This document shows positions 16,329-25,900 of a DNA stretch of 64,000 nt, in pieces. Under the pieces are notes generated by a model that worked only from the letters and a program-made list of their open reading frames with translations, ran no database searches and had not been told where the DNA came from. Position 1 is the first letter of the stretch. Each line of letters begins with the position of its first letter. The stretch spans positions 744,001-808,000 of the forward strand of contig CP126200.1 of assembly GCA_030272155.1 (NCBI GenBank), in the 5' to 3' direction. The DNA is from Tetradesmus obliquus (Eukaryota; Chlorophyta; Chlorophyceae; Sphaeropleales; Scenedesmaceae). Both the position numbers and the translations under genes were made by a program.

Positions 16329-19300
16329 AAGCAGTAGCAGACGGCCTTACTGAACGGCACGCCAAATGACACACAAACAGGATCACAGGCACACCGCACC
16401 CACACAGTGACATGCTGCCGCACCTGTATGTTGTAGTGATGGCCTAGTAGTGCATGGCCTCCTCCTGAACAGCAGTTTACATGACATGCAGCAAGATATC
16501 ATGCACACCACAGCAACACAGTGAAACACACTGCCGCACCTGTACGCAGTAGTGGTGGTCCAGTAGCGTATGGCCTCCTCCTGAACAAGCGCTTGGCAAT
16601 ATGGCTGCCAGGGAGATCTCAAAGATTTTCAAATCAAAGTACATCTGCTACACTGTTATGTAGGGTGTTAAATGTGATGTAATGGCAGAGCCGCGCCGCA
16701 CCTGTATGCCGTGGTGGTGGCCCAGTAGCGTATGGCCTCCTCCTGAACAAGCGCCTGCGGCCGCAGCAGCCGCATGCTGGGCGTTTCAGCATCCATGGGA
16801 ATGTTGAGGAACACTGAAGCCTCGGGCGTCAGCGCCCAGTCTGGCAGGCTGCGCGTTGCTGGGCGCTTGCGGCTGCGCGTGACGCCGTCCTGCGATGCGG
16901 TGTGATGTGGAAGGTGCGGACAGGGTGCAGGTTGAAGTGGAGATGGCAAAGAGAGAGCACAGAGTCTGCGGGGGTTGCACTGCAGCCCTTCCTGCAAGCA
17001 GCAGTCTAATTAGAGGGTGGGCCGCATGCTGGGCGTCTCCGCGTCCATGGGGATGTTGAGGAAGACTGAAGCTTCAGGGGTCAGCGCCCAGTCTGGCAGG
17101 CTGCGCGTGGCGGGGCGCTTGCGGCTGCGCGTGACACCATCCTGCAAGTGCCACAGCAAGCAAGGGACATACAAGGTGAGAAAAGGTTTAACAGGTATAC
17201 ATGGGGACTGCAGTGCAGTCTTTCCTGCAGGCGTTGGTTGGCCAGGGCTGCTAAGGTAAGAGATCAATGAGCGCTGCAGTGTGCACCCAAGCCAAGTCTA
17301 GGCAGTGGCAAACGTGGTCCTCCGCATAGCACAGTAACACGTAGGCCTGACATGCCATGCAACACAGCAGCTGCTGGACAAGGGCAGCAGCCTGGCAGCA
17401 GCAGCTGCCTCACCTGCAGGAATGACGCCACGCGGCCTGGCACGTCTGCTGCTGCATCGTGCAGGTCCAGCGTCAGGCTCAGCTGCCCTCCAGACGGGTC
17501 CAGCACCCCCTGTGGATCCATGCACAGCAGACAAGGCACAATGGTAAGCATATAACTATGACAGAAAGATACAGCAGGTGGGATGCATAGTGAGGCTCAG
17601 CTGCCCACCAGAGGCGTCCAGCACCCCCTGTGGTCCACAACGAGAGGCAGCGCAGCGCAGTATCAATCTGCCATGCAGACGCCCATTTTAACATGATGCT
17701 GATTGCCTGTGCGTTGAGATGCAACAGATATGATTGCACACTGGGCTGCACAATGCACCACATAACAGGTGGTCAGGTGCCCTGCGGCAGCTACCCACCG
17801 GGGTTGCTGGCAGCAGGGCCTGCATGTCAGGGCTAGCATGTGCAAACATGACGAATGCCTGCCAGTCAGCTGCGGTGCAGGTGATGCTGGCTGCGTTGCG
17901 CCAACCAGCACAATTACATAATGCCTTGCTGTTACTAACAAATGCTCCTCCTGCCCACCCACCTGGACAGCCCGCACCAAGGCCTGTGTGTCAGGCCCCG
18001 GCCTGCACCCCTTCAGGTTGAGCAGCAGCAGCGGCACCACCCCGTAGTGGCCCGCATCCTGCAGCACGCCCTGCTCCCACTTCAAACTTTCCTGCAAGTG
18101 CCGCTGCAGCGCCTCACTGCTGCTGCTGCTTTCCTGCAAGCTTTCCTGCAAGCCAGCGCCGCGAAGCAGCGCCTGCTGCCGCTGCACATCGACCACCACG
18201 ACGCTCACGTCGCACTCTTTCAGTGCTGAGAGTGTTTTGCGGCGCTTCTTTTCGCCGAGCTGGCCTGCCTCGTCTATGCCTGCTGTGTCGAAGAGCTTGA
18301 CCGGGCCCAGCTCGTGCAGCTCCATGAGCGACACCTTGACGTCTGCAGCTCAACAGCAGCGCAGAAGGGTTTAGGGGTGCACAGGGGTTAGGGTTTAAGG
18401 CAGACATGTTTGGGGGGCTTTGATTGCAGAGGCGCCAGGTTGCATTGCAGAGGCAACAGGTGCCTGCTGTGTCGAAGAGCTTGACCGGGCCCAGCTCGTG
18501 CAGCTCCATGAGCGACACCTTGACATCTGCAGCAGAGGTAGATGGTGGCAGTCACAAGGGACGCTTTGTGGCTTACAGGGCTTGCTCTTACATGCACAGC
18601 TGGTAAAGCATCATCACGTACTCCACCAGGTCACGCTCATGTTTGAGCCTTTGCCTGGTGGCGCCGCAGTACACAAACAGCACACCCACGCACCCGGGTG
18701 CTTGGTGCGGCGTCCGCCACCACACAACAAAAGAACCACACCACACAGCAACCCAACCTGCGGTGGTGCCTGGCGTGGCGTCCACGATGCTGGTCTCCTG
18801 GCACATCAATGGAAGATCTGGGATGCTGCTTTGGCCTGCTTGCATGCAACTGATGCGATTTCTATGTCAACAGCATGCACACCTACACCTCCACATGCAT
18901 TCTCGCTGTCAAACATAAACATACCTGCAGTGGTGCCTGGCGTGGCGTCCACGATGCTTGTCTCCTGGCGCGTGATCGCGTTCATGAGCGTCGACTTGCC
19001 CGCATTCATCACACCAAACACGCCAATGTTGATGCGGGGCACGTCGCTGCCTTTCCCGGGGCCGGGAGGCAGTGCGGCGTCTGCTGCTGCTGCTGCTGCT
19101 GCTGCTGGCTGTGCTGCTGCTGAGCTGTAGGTGCGTGCAGAGGTGTGGTAGCTGCGGGCGGCTGCAGCAAGACAAGGGAGATGCGGGGTTGGGAGGTGGG
19201 TGGAGGGCAGGGCAGCAAGACAGAACATAGCGGTGGAGTGAAACGCCAACATGCATGGCTTGATGTTGTGCACTTGTAGCAGTGGGACCGCCAGGTGTAG

Positions 19301-22300
19301 CATGCATGACGCTGGCGGGCTGGCAGGCTGCTGCGTGCCTGATGCTGGGCGGCTAGATCATGCAGGAAGTGCGAACCGTAAAAGTACACGCTGCCGTTCA
19401 TTCTGCAAAGCCTCGCGTTGTACTAGCACCTTCCTCCCAAGCAGCTGTGCTGTATGTGCATACGCCTTGACGGCTTCTATGCAAGCACCTGGCATGCACG
19501 CCCCAAACCTGTTGGCACAAGTTTTGCACATACTCGGGAAATCTGCTCCATCGGGCAGAGAAAGAGGGCTATCTGTTACATAAGCTGCTGCAGACAGAAG
19601 CTGCTGCAGACGCCACCGAGAATAAATGGCACAACGCAATTTCATGCACTGTTGTTTGTGCCACTGCTGTTTGTGCCACTGCAACAGAGGGCTGCGCTCA
19701 CACCAACAGTGCCTGGAACAGGCGCATGCCAGTGCACCACACAATCCGACCCATAAACCTGGCAGGAAGTCAAGGGTTGTGTGGAACAGTGGGCAACCAC
19801 AACACAGCACAAACAAGAAAAAACCCACAATGCTGCATCCTGCAAAAGACATGCTGCACATGTTACTTGCAATAAGCTCGGCCAGCAACCTCCTATTGAA
19901 AGAAAGACTTGGCCCCTGTCCTGCACTGCAACACTGAAGCCGACGCCAATGCCCACACCTGCCCTTCTGAATCGAGTTGATGCTGCAGGCGATATCAAAG
20001 TAGGGTGATGCCTGCCAAACGTACCCCATGACACCAAAGCATGGCCAGATTGTCAACAACTATAATGAGCAGCTGATTAGGCGAGCCACATGCAGTGCCG
20101 GCCATGCTGGCTGCTTGGGCCACGCACAAAGCAGCAAACAAGATAATGTGCTTGCCGCACAGGTTGGTTGCAGCTGGTCCTGAAGTGCTGCCACACCCGC
20201 ACACACTTGCCATAACTCAACCACTGTGGCAGTGAATGCTCTCTGTCAAAGTGCTGTCGACTGATGCTGCTTGCGCATCTGCATGCCCGAGGTGAGCACA
20301 GGGCCTGCGCCAGCTGCAGTGCGCAGCAAAGCAAATCGGCGCCACCACCGCAACAAATCAACGCCTGGAAAAGCCACTCACAGATGTGAGAGGGCGCACA
20401 GAAGCCATGAGCAGTAGCGTGCCACGGCAATGTCAATCCCCCCACAAACACAGCCATGCCCCTTCTCAACACAGCGCAGCTCAGCGTCTCAGCGGTACAA
20501 CACCTCAACTTCATCAGGAGGTGAAGCTTACACTGCAAAACGCTCCCCACTCCACTCATCACCACGGGAGCTGTCTGTTCTTCAGTGTGGGCAAAATTAA
20601 ACAAGAGCAGGCGACTCACGCACATGAGCCCGCCCCCGCCACGCGCGTCTGCTGCAGCGCCCGCACGTCCACGCCAGCCACTGCTCACAGCCATAACCCA
20701 TGCGCCATGCGCCACAAATCACGCCTCAGCTCGACACCCAACGCAACACCCTGAACGCCTGCACCACTGCCTCCATGAGCCGCATAACTAGTGGTGCAAA
20801 GCGAGCTCATCAGTCAAACTGCTGCCACTCCGGCTGCTGGCTCACGCACCTGAGCCAGCGCCAGCCGACTGCGCCTGCTGCAGCGCCCGCACACCCACAC
20901 CAGCCACAGCCATGGCGCAATGCTCACCCACAGCTGGCATCACCTCAACGTGACAAGAACTGCATGCACGTGGTGCAAACTGCAACCCTGGTGATACACG
21001 CGCAGCTGCGTGTGTCCCCAGTCGGCTAGGGCTAAGGCTGCCACTCCGGCTGCTGGCTCACGCACCTGAGCCAGCGCCCGCCACGCCAGCCGACTGTGCC
21101 TGCTGCAGCGCCCGCACGTCCACGCCAGCCACCGGGGCCAGGAAGTTGGGCGGGTCTCCCCAGGCGCCCTGGCGCAGGCGCTTGCCGATCATGGACACGC
21201 GCGCGTTGAGGCACTTGCGGCACTCCTCCGCTGTGTCGGTGATGCAGGGCTTGCCCTCGTACAGCTGGTAGTGCTCGCGGTACCTGCATCAGAGAAGAAG
21301 CATAGAATGTTGTGGTACAATGAAGGGGGTTTAGGCAACTTCTCCGCTGTGTCGGTGATGCAGGGCTTGTCCTCGTACAGCTGATGGTGCTCGCGGTGCC
21401 TGCAGCCGCAACGAACAAGAGTAGGGTTTTGTGTATAATGGAAGGCGGTTGAGAAACTGTTCAGTTGTGTCGGTGATGCACGGCTTGCCCTCGTACAGCT
21501 GGTAGTGCTCGCGATACCTGCGGCAGAGCACGGAGCAAGGGTTTTGTGTGAAGGGAAGGGGTTTCAGTCATTCTGCTGTGTCGGTGATGCAGGGCTTGTC
21601 CTCGTACAGTTGGTAGTGCTCGCGGTACCTGCAGCCGCAACGAACAAGAGTAGGGTTGTGTGTGTAAAATCAAGGCGATTTAGGAAGTGTTCAGTTGTCT
21701 TGGAGATGCACGGCTTGCCCTCGTACAGCTGGTAGTGCTTGTGGTACCTGCAGCAAGTGGTGGAGGGATATTCAGCCCCAACATCCAACAAACCTGCGCT
21801 GCAACATATCACTGCAGGTATAAAGATGCACGCGAGCGTCAAACACTGTTGCAGCTCCACCTACCACAATGATGCACATAGCACACATGGCCAAGTAGTA
21901 CCGCACGCACTTGGTGGGTGTGAGGATGAGCATGAGCACGTCAAACGACAGAGCATGCAAGCACATCAACAGCCCGTTGCGCCGCTTGCCGTCCTTCACC
22001 AACACAGGCTTACTTGTGGCCTGCAGCTTTTACTCACTTGGTGGGTGTGAGGATGGGCATGAGCACGTTGCAGCCGCGCCGCAGCGCAATCTCCCGCCCG
22101 TTAGGCTCTATCGCCTGCAGTGCCGTTGTGGCGCTGATGTTGGCTGAACCCACCACAATGCGAGCCAGGCTGTTCATGCGCGTGGTGAGGTCAAACATGG
22201 CCTTCATGTGCGACTTCTTGTCAACGTGCCCAAACATGGACTCCCACATGTCCGCCACAGGCGTGCCGGCCTCTGTAGGATAAAGCAGCAGCAGCAGGAG

Positions 22301-22950
22301 CAGCAGCCAAGGGTTGTGTGACGACAGACGCGTGAGCGTGCGATGGTTTGCGGGCCATGCATGCGTGTGCGCACCTGCAGGCAGAACTTCACAAGGCCAG
22401 ACCAATTTCGTTCATGATGTTGCTGATGGTTACGCGCTGCGCACCTGTGATGTATGGTCCCATGCCGATCATGTTGGCGTTCAGCTCCTTGAAGAAACAG
22501 TGCATATGCGTATGGTGTGTTTGGACATGACCCTGGTACCCCCACCGCCACCAAACCCCAGGGACACCTCCCAGCGCCAGCATCTGTGCAAAACTGTACA
22601 AGAAAAACCACGCCAGGCTTACCAACTCCGCCGACAAATGTCAGAATCCGCTGACGCATGTCATAAATGACGTTCCAGCCACGCACCTGTGATGTACGGC
22701 CCCATGCCGATCATGTTGGCGTTCATCTCCTTGAAGAAGCGGATGTCGCCCGCCAGGTCGCGCAGCGTCTGGCCAGGCAGGCCCACCATGACGCCAGTGC
22801 CCACCTGCACAGCAGCAGCAGCAGCAGCAGCAGGGACCACATGAGACATGTTCGCATCGCTGCTAGCTCAGCCGTAGTGCGGCTACACTGACTCAAAGGT
22901 AGCACCAAGTGCGGCCAGGCAGGCCCACCATGACGCCAGTGCCCACCTGC

Positions 22951-22991
<41 letters not shown>

Positions 22992-25900
22992 GACCACATG
23001 AGACATGTTCGCATCGCTGCTAGCTCAGCCGTAGTGCGGCTACACTGACTCAAAGGTAGCACCAAGTGCGGCCAGGCAGGCCCACCATGACGCCAGTGCC
23101 CACCTGCACAGCAGCAGCAGCAGCAGCAGGGACCACCTAAGACATGTTCACATTGTTGCTGGATCAGCCATAGTGAGGCTACACTGACAAAGGTAGCGCC
23201 AAGTGGCGGCCAGGCAGGCCCACCATGACGCCCACCTGCACAGCCGCAGCAGCAGCAGCAGTGCCAGGATCACAATAAGACGTGCGAGCAAGCTCAGCAC
23301 TGCTGCTTGCAAGACTGCAGTTGCAACAAAGTAACAGCAACCGACTGCAATGTTAACAGCTTGCAGAGCAAATAAGCATCCTAAAGGCAAACGCGTCGAC
23401 CACTGCGCCATCACCGCTTACACTTGTGAGCAGGGCAAGACAAACTCACATTCCTTGCAGTGGACAGAATTTTACCAAGGCAACCATCAGCAATGCAGAA
23501 AGCAAAAAAGCACCCTGATTCTAGTCAATCGCCTTAACCACTCCGCCATCACCGCCACCGTGCTAGCGGTTTGCGCCACTCTGTAATAGAATATATTTCA
23601 TGCCTTCACTTTGCGGTGAACAGGATTTGAACCTGTGCGGGAACTCCCAATTGATGTCAAGCAGGTGCTGCTGCTGTATGAGCACTACACCACAGAAACA
23701 TCGCAAAAAAGAACCCCAAAGTCAGTTCCCCACACCGCGGCCGGTGGGGGAGACCGCCTCCGTGTAACAAATGCAATGCAATGCAATGCCGCGGCCAGCG
23801 ACAGCAACTAGTAGCACAGGTGGCATAACACATCACATTGGCAATACCACTGTTGCGCTGCTTACACTCAACAGCACAGGACACAAGGCGGATTACATGG
23901 GAGGGGAGCAGCCGCCGCCCGCCACCAGCCCCACCTTCCTGACATTCACACTCAATGACACAAAATAACACAGCAAAGTAACAGCCCACCATGTATCCAA
24001 TCTTCTTGAGGCTGTTGAGGCAGTCCACGCGGCGCTGCCAGCTCATCGCGTCCGGGTGCAGCGCCGCCGGCAGCCAAAACCCCATGCTTGGTGAAGGACC
24101 ACAATAAAAGTACCTTCATAACACATAAGAGTTACAGCCCACCATGTATCCAATCTTTTTGAGGCTGTTGAGGCAGTCCACGCGGCGCTGCCAGCTCATC
24201 GCGTCCGGGTGCAGCGCCGCGTACAGCTCAGGGTTGCTGCTCTCAATGCGCAGCAGGTAGCGCCGCGCGCCCGCATCATACAGCTCCTGCAGCATGACAA
24301 ACCCATGTACGTGTTGTTTGATATTGAATTGGATGCTGCTTTTGAAATTTTCAATGTGCAGCAGGTAACGCTGCGCGCCCGCATCCTGCAGCTGCTACAG
24401 CATGTCACGGTAATATACCGTTCAGTCTAAAGATTTGAGAGCGCGGTTCTCAATACGCAGCAGGTAACACTGCGCACCAAGAATACATGTGACAGCAGGA
24501 ACCAGAAGAACAATGCAGCACAATTTGCCCTGCCCTGCATGTAGCAGCCAGTGGTGCGTTATGCCGCTGCTGCGCACCTGGTAGCTCCTCAGGCAGCTCC
24601 CCGACTGACAGCGCTGAGCACTGCACACCAGCCCTTTATATACACAATCACAGCACATTGTTGAACCTGCCGCTGCTGCGCACCTGGTAGTGCTCCTCAG
24701 GCAGCTCCCCCACTGACAGCGCCACGCGCAGCCCCAGCTCGCCAGCATCAGCAGGAGGAGGCGCCTGCAGGGTAGCAGCCAGCACAGCACAGCAGCATTT
24801 GAAACATATGACGCAGCCCTTGCACTCATAAACACAGCCCTTGCCAGCAAGTGATGCAGCCCCAGCTCGCCAGCGTCAGCAGGAGGAGGCGCCTGCAAAG
24901 GCAGCAGCCAGCACAGCACAGCAGCATTTGAAACATATGACGCAGCCCTTGCACTCATACACACAGCCCTTGCCAGCAAGTGATGCAGCCCCAGCTCGCC
25001 AGCGTCAGCAGGAGGGCGTCACCAGGAGGGCGTCAGCAGGAGGAGGCGCCTGCAGGGGCAGCAGCAGCACAGACGGCAGCCACAGGGCCTGGTGTAGTTA
25101 ACAGACAGAGGCCGAGGAAGCGTGTGCCAGCATCAAGAGCGGTCGCACGATGCACCTGTGGGCGAGCGAAGATACCACAAACGGGCACGCCTCCCACGCA
25201 CGCAGCAGCAGGCATAATGCGCAACATAAGCCGATCACTTGTGCACCTCAACATCAACATTAACGCTGACAACACCCCTGGAATATCCCCAAAACCGCAC
25301 CTTGGGGTCCAGCCCGCGCTGGGTCATGTCCAGCTCCAGTGTTTCCTGGTGCACACGCGCCACCAGCTCCTTCAGGTAGGCCAAGCGCTGAGGGGTGGGA
25401 AGCTCACCTGCACAGCGCCAGCCACATGAAACATGTATACACAAGCATTAGTTGTCTGGAGTAGCAGCAGTGTGATGCATCTGCCACATAGGCTTGAGGT
25501 AGGCCAGGCGCTGCGGGGTGGGCAGCTTGCCCACAGTAGCCAGACGCGCAACACAGGCCCTTCAACAACAGCATTGTAATCAGCAGCAGCGCAATGCATA
25601 TGCGGGATACCAGCTCCTTCAGGTGCGCCAGCCGCTGAGGCTTGGGCAGCTTGACTGCAGCCAGTGATGTGAAAAGGTTGCGGGTGGGGCATTGCAGTGT
25701 CAAGCATGTGTTTTAGCAGAGTGCATGCAAGCAGACGCACGACCCACCATACATTAAGCTGGCGGTATGCAATGTCCATGAGTGTATTGACTGAGAGTTG
25801 ACGCATGCGGCCTCAGCCACTCACCCGACTGCAGCATGAGTGTGCCCATGCGGTTTTCAAAAGCCCACTTGGCCACTTCTACAACTTCATCGATGGGGAT

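Follow-up and report, generated by a model that had tools for sequence, protein, structure and literature searches.

The window analysed here, a 64,000-nucleotide stretch of the Tetradesmus obliquus genome with a GC content of 56.7%, carries on its minus strand, from position 23655 to 23519, the two halves of a tRNA gene in reversed order: a 3' half of 43 nt is followed by a spacer of 57 nt and then by a 5' half of 37 nt. The features of the locus are given in the order in which the minus strand reads them.

23969..24289, minus strand: stretches matching HydE, upstream of the tRNA (positions 144-196 of the HydE model, with a duplicated piece, 168-199)
23656..23669, minus strand: leader side of the bulge-helix-bulge; G(-3) at 23658 lies opposite C32 at 23524, and GCACCTG is at 23668-23662
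23613..23655, minus strand: tRNA-Ser(AGA) 3' half, tRNA positions 38-72 (A38, anticodon-stem strand, class II variable arm, T-arm and acceptor strand)
23556..23612, minus strand: intervening sequence of 57 nt, the putative loop of a circular intermediate
23519..23555, minus strand: tRNA-Ser(AGA) 5' half, tRNA positions 1-37, with A37 of the anticodon loop as its last base and G-G as pair 12-23
23507..23518, minus strand: trailer side of the bulge-helix-bulge, beginning TCAGGGTGC
23504..23509, minus strand: run of six T residues, a putative RNA polymerase III-type terminator
23381..23492, minus strand: second unit, decayed, with the same reversed layout
22040..22505, minus strand: HydE-matching stretches downstream of the tRNA (model positions 212-233, a weak match with E 0.027, and 241-296)
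17666..19357, minus strand: HydF-type GTPase coding stretches, downstream, identified by a HydF match

The original prediction was of a circularly permuted tRNA-Ser(AGA) gene, and our results support it. The reversed order of the halves is borne out by direct reading and by the measured coordinates. Re-joined, the halves give an 80-nt body that comes to 81 nt with the discriminator (an A at 23612, the base directly after the 3' half), and this molecule has a TTCAAAT T-loop, a class II variable arm and the anticodon AGA. The perfect acceptor and anticodon stems and the length of about 81 nt that had been claimed agree with what we measured (7/7 and 5/5 pairs). The GCACC and GGTGC motifs described on the outer flanks are present, as is the T6 run past the 5' half (23509-23504), and the B box does precede the A box. 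Judged by its sequence, the locus belongs to the 37/38 type of circularly permuted gene and specifies tRNA-Ser(AGA).

HydE-matching stretches occur on both sides of the tRNA and on the same strand, which places the tRNA within an intron. That intron would be about 1.4 kb long if the weak stretch at model positions 212-233 is an exon and longer if it is not. The tRNA had been assigned to an intron of a HYDEF gene: the intron between HydE-matching stretches and the HydF match downstream on the same strand both stand, and a single fused HYDEF gene is suggested by this arrangement. A protein search aimed at HydF relatives returned 21 matches. Just upstream of the tRNA intron, positions 23965-24074 and 24118-24227 form a tandem duplication with a period of 153 and 93% identity; the duplicated piece matches HydE, so part of the coding sequence has been doubled there. 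The intron itself contains imperfect tandem repeats at 22755-23270, spaced at 138-157 bp and with CAG-rich ends, including one identical 157-bp pair.

The window copy belongs to a family. We searched the whole genome (104,662,953 bases in 17 contigs; TTTAGGG repeats are present at seven of the eight contig ends examined, and the eighth reads N) for the 3' end of the tRNA, allowing up to three mismatches. It occurs at six places, four of which are permuted Ser(AGA) loci with reversed halves: the window copy on contig C10, one copy on C8 and two on C2 (C2a and C2b). The other two are an ordinary Ser(CGA) gene and C8:4999983, where no tRNA could be recognised. Used as a DNA query, the re-joined 80-mer matched the same four loci, each as two pieces, together with an ordinary Ser(CGA) gene at 86%, and a pattern for the 5' half (up to three mismatches) found the four loci and Ser(CGA) and nothing further. 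Across the four copies the mature sequence is identical at 76-80 of 80 positions (0-4 differences). Their spacers measure 57 nt in the window copy, 39 in C8 and 62 in each C2 copy, and the three divergent spacer types barely align, at 0.3-1.5 standard deviations above shuffled sequence. The window and C8 copies agree at 43/43 positions in the 3' half and 36/37 in the 5' half and have leaders that are also alike, while C2a and C2b have in common a 232-bp block (94% identity, spacer included) that runs from an upstream element to just beyond the T-run and is flanked by no further long match. Pair 49-65 of the T-stem reads A-U in the window copy and in C8, and G-C in both C2 copies. None of the four encodes CCA, the bases after the acceptor strand being AAA, GAT, GTG and GTG. 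An assembly or inversion artefact, in favour of which we found no point, is extremely improbable given four loci on three contigs and both strands, with unlike outer flanks and three different spacers.

All four loci have the features expected of a processing site in the anticodon loop. The 5' half ends at A37 and the 3' half starts at A38 in every case, so that the junction is placed at 37/38, where the exact cut would fall if the sequence is a sound guide. Leader and trailer pair beyond the anticodon stem in all four. Set in the canonical bulge-helix-bulge register, C32 always lies opposite G(-3), a pairing known as the A-I pair. The middle helix is incomplete, with 3/4 pairs in the window and C8 copies and 2/4 in the C2 copies. 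The outer helix has 7-8 pairs and at most one bulge at all four loci, and was matched by 0.3-1.0% of random flank draws from the same loci in a test whose register and one-bulge rule were chosen after the sequences had been seen. Pair +3/-8 in this region is A-U in the window copy, G-U in C8 and C-G in C2. The T-runs after the 5' half are T6 in the window, T5 in C8 and T4 in both C2 copies, T4 being a weak terminator, and none of the three distinct spacers contains a T4. Folded as whole precursors with RNAfold, the transcripts do not in every case have the full cloverleaf as their lowest-energy structure; tRNAs folded without their modifications often miss the cloverleaf. Two matches to the tRNA-splicing endonuclease domain exceed the family cut-off in this genome, which also contains an ordinary Lys(TTT) gene interrupted at 37/38 by a 16-nt intron. 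A search for the tRNA-ligase family was uninformative because its controls gave no match either.

Standard tRNA searches recognise the gene once its halves are rearranged. ARAGORN calls tRNA-Ser(aga) from the re-joined halves of all four loci, and reads Ser(aga) from the unspliced fragments only if a fragment is treated as a circle. In linear order neither ARAGORN nor Rfam (the latter also at a relaxed threshold on part of the window) called a tRNA in the raw sequence of the window, which is what a reversed gene order would lead one to expect; linear ARAGORN also found nothing at C2a and C2b, and its one call at C8, a tRNA-Ala with a 194-nt intron, is implausible. The rearranged sequence had been proposed to score as a tRNA, and it does so by covariance model as well. 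To build this model we took 21 ordinary tRNAs from the genome, rearranged them around random spacers and left out the permuted loci; ordinary Ser(CGA) and Ser(TGA) belong to this set, so the model is not wholly independent. The window copy reaches 49.5 bits (E 6.2e-13 over 94 kb); the other three loci reach 52.4, 52.4 and 56.6 bits. With a second model, R1, which had three of the real permuted loci in its training set, a search of 68 loci gave 60.8-65.8 bits for the four permuted loci; the best others scored 56.0 and then 34.7 bits. A loose permuted-Ser pattern, composed after the locus had been seen, matched once in the window and in 0/100 shuffles. The same kind of pattern gave no match in the viral_contigs collection with two spacer ranges.

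High scores are also reached by another arrangement. The 56.0-bit match with R1 is an ordinary pair of genes at C2:4001515-4001682, Lys(TTT, with an intron) and Gln(TTG), 7 bp apart, whose inner halves mimic a permuted gene, making it a trap for automatic searches of this type. Two matches in the genome_contigs collection, searched with one spacer range, both proved to be tandem ordinary tRNAs and were then used as negative controls: these two prokaryotic records, picked out by the loose pattern, gave four joins, which scored 28.6-37.6 bits with the first model. The score alone is thus no proof of permutation. The complementarity of the halves does better than the score at telling a permuted gene from a tandem pair. 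When halves of unlike isotypes from 26 tRNAs were combined, wobble pairs being allowed, all 12 acceptor and anticodon pairs formed in 0/614 combinations and 11 of 12 in one, as against 12/12 in the permuted Ser(AGA) loci.

These controls bear on the reading in which two ordinary (intron-bearing) tRNA genes once stood in tandem and lost their outer halves, leaving a locus that is not used as a permuted gene. Such an origin is among those proposed for permuted tRNAs in the accessible text of a review (PMC3978253), and tandem pairs mimic the layout, as the scores above illustrate, but we consider this reading very unlikely. The halves, the outer helix and the T-runs have been kept at four loci while the spacers drifted. 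The end-of-tRNA and 5'-half patterns, with up to three mismatches, revealed no other half next to any locus except the decayed unit in the window, and together with the Ser D-arm/AGA search they turned up no adjoining normal-order copy of which the halves could be fragments. An ordinary intron-bearing gene assembled from the window 5' half and the 3' half of the second unit was tried and rejected: it has 6/7 acceptor pairs and just 2/5 anticodon-stem pairs, 8/12 in all against 12/12 for the inner halves.

Whether the permuted genes are needed depends on the presence of an ordinary tRNA-Ser(AGA), for which a check had been proposed. None was found in the genome by the 80-mer DNA search or by pattern searches at the mismatches allowed, within a tRNA census that is incomplete. 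A pattern for the Ser D-arm plus AGA, with up to two mismatches, found the four loci at zero mismatches, ordinary TGA and CGA genes at one, and no others. The permuted genes could nevertheless be redundant if the tRNA came from an ordinary gene whose body is too divergent for these searches. The ordinary set is indeed partial, since the RNA-family tRNA search scored 63 of 1714 candidates, and a Ser-like 5' half pattern marked 13 places (reversed control, 1), of which six were read. Yet the four permuted loci were the only ones with an AGA anticodon in the Ser D-arm searches and the spliced 80-mer matched no other Ser(AGA), and we regard redundancy as unlikely. Leu-type A-box matches numbered 55 (control 42); 30 of these were read, and all 11 exact matches are ordinary Leu genes.

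In eukaryotes tRNA-Ser(AGA) decodes both UCU and UCC, and for this reason the permuted loci, as a set, are probably essential. With four permuted loci and no ordinary gene found, they are probably the only source of this essential tRNA in the alga, as far as the genome sequence can tell us. The locus in the window is in our estimate (a probability of roughly 87%) a genuine permuted tRNA-Ser(AGA) gene, one of four that are apparently the alga's only tRNA source for the codons UCU and UCC.

The searches also brought up 12 diverged tRNA-like copies called as Thr(ggt), an anticodon that is unusual in eukaryotes (L050-L054, L057, L068-L070 and L072-L074; examples are C5:6563130, C16:409532 and C1:8571608). 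This family is perhaps a tRNA-derived repeat.

Both C2 copies have a 22-nt element upstream, AATAACACTTTTGCGTTYATAT, and elements like it were read ahead of ordinary genes for Ser(CGA), Arg, Leu and Ile. At up to three mismatches the element occurs at 16 places in the whole genome, compared with none for a reversed control. These are the two permuted C2 copies, whose exact matches follow by construction because the pattern was taken from them, nine ordinary tRNA genes, three tRNA-like 5' halves known from pattern match alone, and two places, C5:3628701 and C7:2899303, with no known gene adjoining. From the end of the element it is 41 nt to the 3' half and 146 nt to the 5' half in both C2 copies; to the gene it is 32-87 nt for the nine ordinary genes, and for the tRNA-like 5' halves 25 nt (one) and 92 nt (two). 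The position of the element 41 nt ahead of the 3' half suggests that transcription of the C2 copies probably begins just upstream of that half. The distances 32, 41, 53, 63 and 74 from the element to the start of the RNA are spaced by steps of about one turn of the DNA helix; the fit is poorer for 25, 87 and 92. Upstream of the window and C8 copies the element is missing, the best matches there being 13/22 and 11/22, respectively.

Two of the tRNA-like 5' halves, at C3:4325297-4325327 (minus strand) and C3:4341928-4341958 (plus strand), are Ser-like and do not match the AGA pattern. The element stands 92 nt ahead of each, slightly past the 32-87 nt of the nine ordinary genes and close to the expectation for a permuted gene with a short spacer; these sites are possibly permuted Ser(GCT) genes, or else ordinary ones.

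Two features of the window copy were absent from the original description. Its discriminator is A73, where C8, C2a and C2b have G, and pair 12-23 of its D-stem is G-G. A discriminator G73 together with a long variable arm is listed as the serine determinant in eukaryotes in the accessible text of PMC9976931. The window copy has the long variable arm and, with its A, lacks G73. Also overlooked was the decayed second unit at 23381..23492. The remnant of its 3' half (23476-23457) resembles the first unit at 16/21 columns and that of its 5' half (23417-23385) at 27/33, its trailer agrees at 12/14, and its own stems retain 6/7 and 4/5 pairs. Its model scores of 19.2 and 17.1 bits are not above those of ordinary half-tRNAs, and when re-joined it is not called as a tRNA. 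A73, the D-stem mismatch, the missing upstream element and the decayed neighbour together suggest weak use or decay of the window copy, which on its sequence is probably the poorest and least functional of the four. The case for the permuted family therefore rests mainly on the other three copies.

It follows that the family may be real and the window copy already dead, a relic in an intron, which would be compatible with our main explanation. To this we give even odds. A73 and the G-G at 12-23, the absence of the element and the decayed unit next to it speak for death; against it, the copy has kept its 12/12 acceptor and anticodon pairs, the leader-trailer helix, the C32/G(-3) register and T6, as well as its identity with C8 at 43/43 positions in the 3' half and 36/37 in the 5' half. 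The window copy was once a permuted gene and may still be one, and the two C2 copies are probably the main working genes.

Taking the observed gene order, stems, conservation, outer helix, C2 element and endonuclease-domain matches as a starting point, we infer a pathway of transcription, cutting, circle formation and charging for the permuted tRNA. RNA polymerase III, guided by the upstream element instead of the reversed A and B boxes, would make a precursor of leader, 3' half, spacer, 5' half and trailer, in which pairing of leader with trailer would create the bulge-helix-bulge at 37/38. The splicing endonuclease would cut this structure and a ligase would close the RNA into a circle, from whose acceptor loop RNase P and tRNase Z would excise the spacer, and CCA would be added.

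This kind of gene is already known; what is unusual here is a four-copy family for which no ordinary partner was found. The accessible text of the review cited above (PMC3978253) puts the number of permuted tRNA genes at 34, spread over a red alga, four green algae, a nucleomorph and an archaeon; Ser(AGA) is listed for M. pusilla (64 bp spacer) and B. natans (5 bp). That text, of 2014, states that C. reinhardtii has none. The known intervening sequences range from 1 to 74 bp in the same source, and all four of ours (57, 39, 62 and 62 nt) fall inside that range. The closest likeness is to the type II genes of Ostreococcus, Micromonas and the Bigelowiella natans nucleomorph (tabulated in PMC3978253 after Maruyama et al. 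2010), which share the reversed halves, the 37/38 junction, the short spacer, the leader-trailer helix and a T-run, in our C2 copies a weak T4. Unlike what is tabulated for them, the T. obliquus genes comprise four loci for one isoacceptor, with no ordinary partner found, in a genome of 105 Mb, and one copy lies in the intron of a protein gene with a decayed second unit adjoining. Cyanidioschyzon merolae (Soma et al. 2007, as described in PMC3978253) is alike in layout, proposed circular pathway and, for our C2 copies, upstream promoter, but its junctions are reported at several positions of the cloverleaf, whereas ours are at 37/38 in 4/4. Permuted tRNAs are also reported, in the accessible text of a recent paper, from another green alga, Auxenochlorella (Plant Cell 2025, PMC12636532), where they were found because the tRNAscan-SE set was incomplete; Auxenochlorella belongs to the Trebouxiophyceae, unlike T. 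obliquus, a member of the Chlorophyceae. In the accessible literature that we searched, we found no report of permuted tRNAs in the Chlorophyceae.

A second nucleomorph has permuted Ser(AGA) and Ser(CGA), and two others have none, according to the accessible text of PMC4494063. The occurrence of permuted Ser(AGA) in Micromonas pusilla and in two chlorarachniophyte nucleomorphs as well as here means that it may be an ancient shared trait of the Chlorophyta and not a set of repeated accidents. Our boldest proposal, which we hold only tentatively and think doubtful as a whole, is that a circular RNA is the sole route to the essential Ser(AGA) isoacceptor in this chlorophycean lineage, that the permuted state is ancient in the Chlorophyta and was lost in Chlamydomonas and some nucleomorphs, and that a second Ser isoacceptor, represented by the two C3 sites, may be permuted too.

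The extension of permuted tRNAs into the Chlorophyceae bears on whether such genes have an ancient origin or arose repeatedly. Standard annotation misses them, as plain ARAGORN and Rfam scans did here. The element that the C2 copies have in common with ordinary tRNA genes makes the transcription of permuted genes directly testable, and four copies with drifting spacers are a natural mutational series for the requirements of the splicing endonuclease. If RNA confirms these findings, a green alga that is in culture and has a chromosome-scale genome would need circular RNA processing to decode two serine codons.
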